The notes under the pieces were generated by a model, which was not told where the DNA came from, did not search any database, and saw only the letters and a list, made by a program, of their open reading frames with translations. Both the position numbers and the translations under genes were made by a program. From contig VGYL01000004.1 of assembly GCA_016872975.1 (NCBI GenBank), forward strand, positions 1 through 34,479: a stretch of DNA of 34,479 nucleotides, in the 5' to 3' direction. How positions within the stretch are numbered: the stretch's first letter is position 1; each line of letters begins with the position of its first letter. This document shows, in pieces, positions 1 through 33,990 of the stretch. The DNA is from Planctomycetota bacterium. Lineage in GTDB: Bacteria; Planctomycetota; Phycisphaerae; Sedimentisphaerales; Anaerobacaceae.

Positions 1-126
1 TCAAGCGGAGTCTGGGCTCCCAATCGCGATTCATCGCGATTGGGAACCCTCTTCGGAGCTTGGCGATGGCGGATTTCCCGTGCGCCGGACCATCGCCAAG
101 GCCTACCGGCCTTGACGATGCCACCC
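1..126. repeat. Second copy of the nested palindrome, left arm cut by the window edge, with an extra hairpin
   Basis: TCTTCGGAGCTTGGCGATGG...CCATCGCCAAGGCCT...CCGGCCTTGACGATGCCACCC matches 8534-8613; inserted hairpin CCCAATCGCGAT(19-30)/ATCGCGATTGGG(33-44). Confidence 0.8.
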
Positions 127-141
127 TTTTCACGCGCCCTC

Positions 142-7249: not shown

Positions 7250-8131
7250 CTACGAAACGCCGGCCGGGGGCTGTTCGGGCTCCGGCGGGGCCGCGTTTTC
7301 CTGAGCACCGGGCAACTCCTCGTCCTCGGCGGCCTCCTCGCTGACCGTCGCCACGGCGGCCGCTTCGGTGCCGTCGGCGCGGGCCATCGCCGGTCGCCGG
7401 GAGCGGAGGCGGCGCGGCCGCGGGGCAACTTCCTGCTGCCGGACGGAAACCATCGTCTTGCCGATGGCCACCGCGTCGGCCAACTCGTTGAGGATGATCT
7501 CCACCGCCCGGATGGAATCGTCATTGGCCGGAATCGCGACGTCCACCGTATCCGGATCGGAATCCGTATCCAGGATGCCGACCGTCGGAATGCCCAGCTT
7601 CTGGGCCTCGCGCAGCGCCAGGTATTCCTTGCGGGCATCCACCACCACGACGACGCCCGGCAGCCGGGTCATCTTGCGCACGCCGTCCAGGTTGGTGCGG
7701 ATCTTGCGCATCTCACGCTTGAAGCGGGACGCCTGCTTCTTGCTCTCGGCATCCATCGTCCCATCCTGCTCCATGGCCTCCAGTTGTTCCAGCCGCTGGA
7801 GCCGGGAGCGGATCGTCCGGAAGTTCGTCAGCATGCCGCCCAGCCAGCGTTCCGAGACGAAATGCATCCCGCACCGGTTGGCGGCGGCCTCCACGGCCTT
7901 CTGCGCCTGCCGCTTGGTCCCGACGAACACCACGTCGCTGCCGGACGAGACGATCTCGGCCAACAGCTTCTTGGCGATCAGGATGCCCTTGAGGGTTTCC
8001 TTGACGTCGATCACATGGATATTGCCCCGCTTGGCAAAGATAAAAGGAGCCATCTTCGGATTCCACCGGCTCACGCCGTGTCCGAAATGTACCCCCGCGT
8101 TGATGAGTTCCCGCGCCAACTGTTTAGCCAC
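7250..8131 (-). CDS. rpsB: 30S ribosomal protein S2 (GTG start, acidic/Pro-rich C-terminal tail)
   Basis: VAKQLARELINAGVHFGHGVSRWNPKMAPFIFAKRGNIHVIDVKET; GGAGG about 6 nt before a GTG at 8131 on the minus strand. Confidence 0.96.
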   Translation of the reverse strand: MAKQLARELINAGVHFGHGVSRWNPKMAPFIFAKRGNIHVIDVKETLKGILIAKKLLAEIVSSGSDVVFVGTKRQAQKAVEAAANRCGMHFVSERWLGGMLTNFRTIRSRLQRLEQLEAMEQDGTMDAESKKQASRFKREMRKIRTNLDGVRKMTRLPGVVVVVDARKEYLALREAQKLGIPTVGILDTDSDPDTVDVAIPANDDSIRAVEIILNELADAVAIGKTMVSVRQQEVAPRPRRLRSRRPAMARADGTEAAAVATVSEEAAEDEELPGAQENAAPPEPEQPPAGVS

Positions 8132-8193
8132 AAATACCTCCAGAATACCTCTGATCCATTCTACGTGCAGAAACAAACCGCGAAATTACAACA

Positions 8194-8222: not shown

Positions 8223-8472
8223 ATTCTGACCCCAATAATTTACGGACAAATCTCTGGCATGTCCACCCAGAAAAGTGGGCCGCCGGCCCGGTTTTTCGGG
8301 TGGAAAGCGAATCTGCGGGCCGCCGTGTCGCGCGCGAGCCTCGAGCGACCTCGCGCGGGTTGCCGCCGGCGCTCGCGGACCGCCCGATAATCCGCGCCGG
8401 ATCGAGAGGTATCACACTCGTCCTAAGTGCTTGTAGAACCGGGAGTAATGCTGATTCCAGAGGCTTTCACGG

Positions 8473-8645
8473 GGCCTGGTTCAAGAAACAGTCTTTTCGG
8501 GTAACGGAGAACGGGTGGCAGCGGCAAGCGCAGTCTTCGGAGCTTGCCGATGGTCTTGCTTGTCCGCCATCGGCAAGGCCTGCGCAGAGCCTCCGGCCTT
8601 GCCGCTGCCACCCACCCAGACTGTTACCCGGGTCTGAACCGGGCC
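8473..8645. repeat. Nested composite palindrome (about 173 bp)
   Basis: Arm pairs: GGCCTGGTTCA(8473-8483)/TGAACCGGGCC(8635-8645), one mismatch; CGGGTAAC(8498-8505)/GTTACCCG(8623-8630); GGGTGGCAGCGGCAAG(8513-8528)/CTTGCCGCTGCCACCC(8598-8613), perfect 16 bp; CTTGCCGATGG(8543-8553)/CCATCGGCAAG(8567-8577). Confidence 0.9.
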
Positions 8646-8843
8646 TTTCACGAGCCTGCGGGCATCGCCAGGGCGGCGGCCGGACGGGAAGCGAAACGTC
8701 TGGCCCGCCCGTTTCGGCGCGAGCGCCAAGATCGGCAGCAGACTCGCAGGACTAGCGAAACGTACCACGAGCAGGAGGTCGAGACTCCATTCGGATGAGT
8801 GTCCGGGCCCGCGCGGGGACCCGCGGGCGGCGCGAAGATGCGC

Positions 8844-9284
8844 TCAATACCAGACGATGATCAGGATGTTCGGCTCGGTTTTCTTTTCCGTGATTTCGCC
8901 CTGGATCACGTTCGTGTGTTTGATCACGATCTGAGGATTCTCCCGGAGCCATTTTGCGATCTGTTCATCGAGGAAATGGATGGCGCCGGGATGGAGCTTG
9001 GTGAAAAAGGTCTTGCAGGCGGTGATTCGATCCCCCGCGGCGGCGGCCGGCCTGGGGGGCGCCGGCTTGGGGGGCACCGGTCGGGGGGGAACGGCGGCCT
9101 TGGGAGCGGCGGCTGCCGTCGGAGCCCCCGTGGCTCCGCCCAGATTCAACGGGGCCCGGGACACGTTGGGAGGGGTGCCCGCCCCGGTGTCCGTCATTGG
9201 GGCCGGCTCACCGGTCCTGCCCTCTGAAGAAGCCGGGCCATTGCGGTCATCGCTGCGTGGGGGATTGCTGCTCACATTGTCCAT
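8844..9284 (-). CDS. Hypothetical protein, Pro/Ala-rich N-terminus with a compact C-terminal domain
   Basis: 146 aa; C-terminus 'ITACKTFFTKLHPGAIHFLDEQIAKWLRENPQIVIKHTNVIQGEITEKKTEPNILIIVWY' looks folded and coding-like. Confidence 0.65.
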   Translation of the reverse strand: MDNVSSNPPRSDDRNGPASSEGRTGEPAPMTDTGAGTPPNVSRAPLNLGGATGAPTAAAAPKAAVPPRPVPPKPAPPRPAAAAGDRITACKTFFTKLHPGAIHFLDEQIAKWLRENPQIVIKHTNVIQGEITEKKTEPNILIIVWY

Positions 9285-33823: not shown

Positions 33824-33915
33824 GGCCTGGTTCAGAACCTGGCAATCGTCTCGGCGGGTGGCCAGGGGCTCCCAACGCATACGTTCGCGTTGGGGCCCCC
33901 AGTGTCCAGGGCGTT
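33824..33915. repeat. Element with the GGCCTGGTTCA end and a strong hairpin, related to the nested palindrome family
   Basis: GGCCTGGTTCA at 33824-33834; GGGGCTCCCAACGC(33865-33878)/GCGTTGGGGCCCC(33887-33899). Confidence 0.65.
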
Positions 33916-33990
33916 CGTAGTGACTGGGCGACCTTGATTGTATAGGAATTTGTTCTTGTGGATAACTCCGGCGCGGTCGGGCGCACGGCC

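Follow-up and report, generated by a model that had tools for sequence, protein, structure and literature searches.

The palindrome upstream of rpsB

The window, that is, the whole stretch of 34,479 nucleotides analysed here, carries a 173-bp palindromic element between two minus-strand genes: rpsB (7250-8176) on one side and, on the other, a 146-aa ORF (8844-9284) that has no Pfam match and is followed by a secretin gene. An earlier note, made from the sequence alone, had described a nested palindrome at 8473-8645. The arms it listed are present, including a perfect 16-bp pair (8513-8528/8598-8613), and its coordinates coincide exactly with the ends of the element, which are flanked by TTTCACGG and TTTCACGA. 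The termini form 11-bp imperfect terminal inverted repeats (TIRs) with one mismatch, and the element has the attributes of a MITE, namely TIRs, a length within the range of about 100-400 bp, the lack of a transposase gene and a target-site duplication (TSD) of fixed length. Its parts, and those of related elements in the window, are listed in Table 1.

Table 1. Features of the composite element and of related repeats in the window.
Position	Strand	Feature	Basis
1-126	+	Remainder of the REPIN of a type-B MITE, truncated at the contig start	Near-identical sequence at about 40 places in the own genome
14-49		36-bp hairpin element inside the type-B REPIN, TCT duplication (11-13, 50-52)	Uninterrupted copies read GGAGTCTTCGGAG
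130-141	-	Right TIR of the type-B MITE, TCACGCGCCCTC, then TTA	Comparison of REPIN flanks
8465-8472		Left TSD, TTTCACGG	7/8 bases identical to 8646-8653
8473-8645	+	Whole type-A MITE with REPIN, 173 bp	At least 41 own-genome matches, TIRs, 8-bp TSD
8473-8483	+	Left TIR, GGCCTGGTTCA	Pattern GGCCTGGTTCARRA
8499-8505	+	Left subterminal GGGTAAC, common to related IS ends	Sequence
8513-8613	+	REPIN of two inverted GTGG-headed REPs	71 REPINs compared; same REP family flanks RAYT genes
8513-8553	+	Left REP: GG-GTGG head, hairpin CAGCGGCAAGC / GCTTGCCGATG	Sequence; similar single REPs occur alone
8554-8566		REPIN linker	Sequence
8567-8613	-	Right REP, inverted: hairpin CATCGGCAAGGCC / GGCCTTGCCGCTG, CCACCC head	Inverted-repeat pair
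8623-8629	-	Right subterminal GTTACCC (GGGTAAC inverted)	Sequence
8635-8645	-	Right TIR, TGAACCGGGCC, one mismatch to the family	Family pattern
8646-8653		Right TSD, TTTCACGA	Flank comparison
33824-33920	+	Truncated type-A end, another palindrome within	Sequence comparison

The fold of the element is very stable (-102.7 kcal/mol; z -5.5 on the plus strand and -4.7 on the minus strand, relative to shuffled sequences). Together with its covarying arms and its position upstream of rpsB, this would speak for a structured RNA, either an rpsB leader or a processed intergenic RNA, whose fold is under selection. However, no Rfam family matches 8473-8645 above the gathering score, and the candidate explanations of an rpsB leader RNA or an intrinsic terminator were rejected on this ground and because no terminator-like site lies within the element. 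The dozens of copies in unrelated contexts, bounded by target duplications, and a covariation that symmetry alone predicts also argue against a structured RNA, a suggestion of the earlier note that found no backing in these searches and is hardly credible. That note had also considered a protein-binding cruciform. A non-mobile site of this kind, or a nucleoid site, would fit the large perfect palindromic arms, and some enterobacterial REPs bind gyrase or IHF. Nothing was found in its support, however, and target duplications and between-species differences in copy number are typical of mobile DNA, which makes this reading most improbable.

The outer transposon: copies, ends and presumed transposase

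The earlier note knew of two copies and would have regarded its interpretation as refuted had these been the only ones, which is not the case. The 173-bp query matches at least 41 places in the own genome, an 8.09-Mb MAG of 1451 contigs, with 78-100% identity (40 of the 405 first-look candidates having been scored), and many contigs end in type-A or REPIN repeats. Full copies of this element, called type A, share sequence precisely from GGCCTGG.. to ..CAGGCC, beyond which their flanks differ, and the 8 bp next to the two ends form a repeat. Among 51 TIR-bounded candidates, some of which are chance pairs inside genes, 30 have 8-bp flank repeats identical at seven or more positions (15 exact and 15 seven-of-eight), a level that randomly paired flanks reach in 1.4% of cases; none of the 51 has an exact repeat of 7 bp or of 9 bp. 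The TIR pattern GGCCTGGTTCARRA has 66 exact matches in the own genome, as against none for a reversed-pattern control. Taken together, the duplications and the contrast between pattern and control identify the outer layer as a MITE. The type-A MITE also holds other cargo in the form of GTAG REPINs. At another locus, L054, four palindromes are nested, a MITE enclosing a REPIN, a GGGCTC hairpin within it and, within the latter, a GGGGTCCCC hairpin. The truncated type-A end near the far end of the window lies about 100 bp from an Acido-Lenti-1 RNA (RF01687; 33996-34039, minus strand, 40.8 bits).

The second copy that the earlier note had placed at 50-126 does share the inner REPIN; its outer ends, in contrast, belong to another transposon family of the AGAGGGTGTGTGA type, named type B, of which full-length copies begin GAGGGTGTGTGAG. 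The 36-bp hairpin at 14-49 has counterparts in REPIN arms at L086 and L054 (GGGCTCCCAATCGCGAT.., GGGGTCCCCAACGC..). Such insertions are bounded by 3-bp repeats (TCT, CTC), one of them sits inside another, and they are possibly a separate family of tiny mobile palindromes.

The type-A end pattern was searched across the family with control patterns, and was present in two further genus members and in several other genera, while the controls gave zero. Type-A elements inspected in other genera are mostly 150-180 bp long, and the portions inspected contain no trace of a GTGG REPIN; the same holds for the 151-bp outer element at L302 (G007; TSD GAGGAATT). In two other genera (L398 in G021 and L393 in G052), 5' remnants of a single transposase follow about 117 bp downstream of a type-A end. 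Loci of this transposase family (L398:1703-2347, minus strand; L393; L401:2453-3961) have the ends GGCNTGGTTCA..GGGTAACA. Besides planctomycete MAGs, the family extends to distant homologues on plasmids: full-length ones (about 500 aa) are annotated as "hypothetical proteins" in Acaryochloris, and Burkholderia has a shorter one, with ends such as GGCTAGGTTCAAAACCAGGTAACAG and GGCGTGGTTCAGTTGAGGGTTACAC; by eye, the Acaryochloris copies with similar ends have no clear TSD. The presumed type-A transposase gives no Pfam match above cut-off, and its weak similarity to the NCBIfam ISL3 model (15.5 bits against a cut-off of 180) falls far short of the score required; although without a Pfam or NCBIfam model, the family may already be named in ISfinder. 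Judging by shared ends and remnants, the type-A transposase probably came from the IS family with ends GGCNTGGTTCA..GGGTAACA.

A search of the own genome, which is fragmented into 1451 contigs, found no autonomous type-A IS. An IS on C773 that borders one end of an A-like copy was rejected as such an element, since it begins 18 bases within the A end and is a different IS that inserted at this point. The PF01609 transposases of the genus were likewise discarded as a source, none of 30 inspected loci having type-A ends around the gene and one having type-C ends. At L194:1-140 and more than 20 contig ends, a multi-copy IS (start GGGTCGTACCTCGTGATG, ORF MGNARSLSQE..) is inserted beside an A end and breaks the assembly.

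The inner REPIN and its putative transposase

REPs are defined by a GT[AG]G head and a hairpin, and occur singly or as the inverted doublets called REPINs (PMC6006769, PMC3116915). In the element, GTGG lies at the foot of one hairpin (8515-8518) and its inverted counterpart at the foot of the other (8608-8611). A 1.43-Mb sample of the genome (parts of C1-C79, C200 and the window; mostly the longest contigs) contains 206 heads of the form GTGGCA[GT]CGNCAAG with at most one mismatch, from which 84 REPIN pairs of a head and an inverted head could be built. The unpaired heads include single hairpins (GGGTGG-CATCGCCAAGGCC-loop-GGCCTTGACGATGG), so that REPs of this family occur both singly and as doublets.

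The earlier note correctly described the base that differs between 8473-8645 and 50-126, a change that alters both sides of the stem together. The note read this joint change as a sign of selection on the folded form, and the arms do covary across the 71 REPINs compared: the variable base in the four arms reads G/C/G/C in 33, T/G/C/A in 20 and C/A/T/G in 15, with 3 mixed, and the long REPIN fold stays paired there in nearly all of them. In single-REP hairpins, however, the variable base forms a Watson-Crick pair in the G/C/G/C class only, the other two of the three REP subtypes having a T-G or C-A mismatch. Because the arm patterns are those of three REP subtypes, they represent few independent double changes, and because a REPIN is by construction a REP and its inverted copy, two-sided changes can come from duplication or arm conversion. 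In REPINs it is common for a change on one side to be compensated on the other (Bertels and Rainey 2011, PMC3116915). As judged from sequence comparison, the coupled change is a reflection of both halves being the same REP subtype, a known REPIN hallmark, and it does not entail selection for an RNA fold. Covarying arms in short palindromes, taken alone, are no evidence for RNA.

The earlier note had advised looking for a RAYT gene, and one lies on C344 of the own genome, flanked by REPs of the same family. A protein of a congener (P0001, G003:C242; CALMMH010000242.1, uncultured Phycisphaerales bacterium) matches the NCBIfam model REP_Tyr_transpos with 95.9 bits (cut-off 80). The C344 product is its intact orthologue (67% identity), with the HUH motif PNHVH and the tyrosine motif YIHHNP (YIH.NP), and a second relative lies on C633 (47% identity). 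Both were found by protein search only, and the cognate RAYT is not among the 14 own-genome PF01797 matches. Within 500 bp of C344 there are five REP heads (chance 0.0005), and two or three at each of C633, C220, G008:C42, G003:C677 and G003:C242 (chance of at least two about 0.05 apiece), of which those at C220, where a type-B MITE lies next to a more distant Y1 gene, count little; ten other own-genome Y1 loci have none within that distance. All three REPs neighbouring G003:C677 carry the stem variant CAGCCTCAAG/CTTGGGGATG, and RAYT orthologues in other Phycisphaerae MAGs and one Zixiibacteriota MAG adjoin GTGG hairpins whose stems are very different yet paired. A cognate RAYT flanked by the same REPs is thus present at C344 and C633 and at the orthologues in G003 and G008, and the C344 product is the likely, putative transposase of the GTGG REP family. 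Further RAYT-like Y1 genes at L181 (G000:C106) and L180 (G000:C566) have GTAG REPs of their own (GTAGGGTGGGGC and GTAGCATGGGCG, respectively), which indicates that several REP systems coexist in the genome.

One REPIN family in six MITE families

Half of the REPINs in the 1.43-Mb sample (42 of 84) lie between matching TIRs, which fall into six families (A 7, B 14, C 11, D 3, E 4, F 3); a further 26 have a TIR on one side, 15 no known TIR, and one sits at the edge of a contig. Among random 75-bp windows, 0.9% contain the A motif and at most 0.2% each of the other motifs, a comparison that measures non-randomness and is no blind prediction, the motifs having been taken from these same REPIN flanks. 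As assessed by eye, several type-C copies have exact 10-bp duplications (e.g., TCAATTCGGC, AGGCGCGAGT and CAGGTTTCAC) and type B has mostly a 3-bp TNA duplication, so that the REPIN carriers show at least three duplication lengths: 8 bp (A), 10 bp (C) and about 3 bp (B). A congener carries an ISAs1-like DDE_Tnp_1 IS with CAGGGCAAACGCAAAG ends (L328, G006:C37, 1389-2625), which is likely the autonomous partner of the type-C MITEs. The ISAs1 family and type C are alike in the terminal CAGGGCAAACGCAAAG on a DDE_Tnp_1 element and in 10-bp duplications, a likeness that concerns the type-C carrier and not the type-A element at 8473-8645.

These carriers bear on a further reading, in which the whole 173-bp unit is a large REPIN or BIME moved by the RAYT, with decorative outer arms and no DDE transposase. 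The genome does have a RAYT and REPs of the GTGG family, and REP dimers within longer palindromes are known from A. variabilis and H. neapolitanus (PMC3733652). However, the outer ends are bordered by exact 8-bp target duplications, which contradict mobilisation by the RAYT alone, as do outer elements that lack the REPIN or hold other cargo, and the occurrence of the same REPIN in five other TIR families, two of them with 10-bp and about 3-bp duplications. This reading is very unlikely. The element at 8473-8645 is very probably a non-autonomous DNA transposon, the type-A MITE, with a REPIN as internal cargo; the earlier guess of a mobile REP- or MITE-like element thus proved apt on both counts, the one being nested in the other.

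The outer TIRs and the 8-bp duplications imply that a cut-and-join transposase, which would be of the DDE type, inserted the 173-bp units as a whole. The REPIN would have entered or joined IS ends once or more, and the composites would afterwards have been spread by the IS transposase acting on the TIRs, while the REPIN alone would be mobilised by the RAYT as single-stranded hairpins. The long fold would be a by-product of two-level inverted symmetry, and inverted duplication or arm conversion, together with hairpin recognition by the RAYT, may keep the REP subtypes equal in both halves.

Both kinds of component, REPIN and MITE, are already known. With REPIN/RAYT systems (TnpA-REP; PMC3116915, PMC6006769), this one shares inverted REP hairpins, the GT[AG]G head, compensatory changes and a REP-flanked RAYT, but its GTGG head with stem CANCGNCAAG is clade-specific as far as searched, and half of its REPINs are enclosed by MITEs with target duplications. 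The nearest precedent is GTAG-15 of A. variabilis and CGTC-1 of H. neapolitanus, in which a REP doublet lies amid an unrelated inverted repeat; the part of that report consulted describes one palindrome per genome, with REP-free palindromes not found and no target duplication mentioned (PMC3733652), whereas here there are six TIR families, measured duplications and REP-free relatives. The IS-derived bacterial MITEs, for example MITEAba12 (PMC6382973), are likewise short and non-coding, with TIRs, a duplication of fixed length and relatives with transposase remnants. In contrast to them, the interior here is another mobile element, and the presumed transposase family lacks a Pfam or NCBIfam model.

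What is unusual is that one REPIN family is systematically paired with several families of MITE, for which modest precedent exists. To our knowledge, the spread of REPINs is usually credited to the RAYT only. A broader proposal, which we regard as possible but rather doubtful, is that REPINs serve as a general MITE core in this genus: at least six unrelated IS families, among them that of the type-A transposase without a Pfam or NCBIfam model, would each have gained a GTGG REPIN midway between their ends, the hairpin would be spread both by the RAYT (as single strand) and by DDE transposases (as double strand), and the palindromic nature of the core may favour the birth or mobility of MITEs. 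With half of the sampled REPINs inside several unrelated kinds of MITE, this genome is a natural test of the carriage of hairpin repeats by other transposases, and equally a test case for the origin of MITEs from IS ends.
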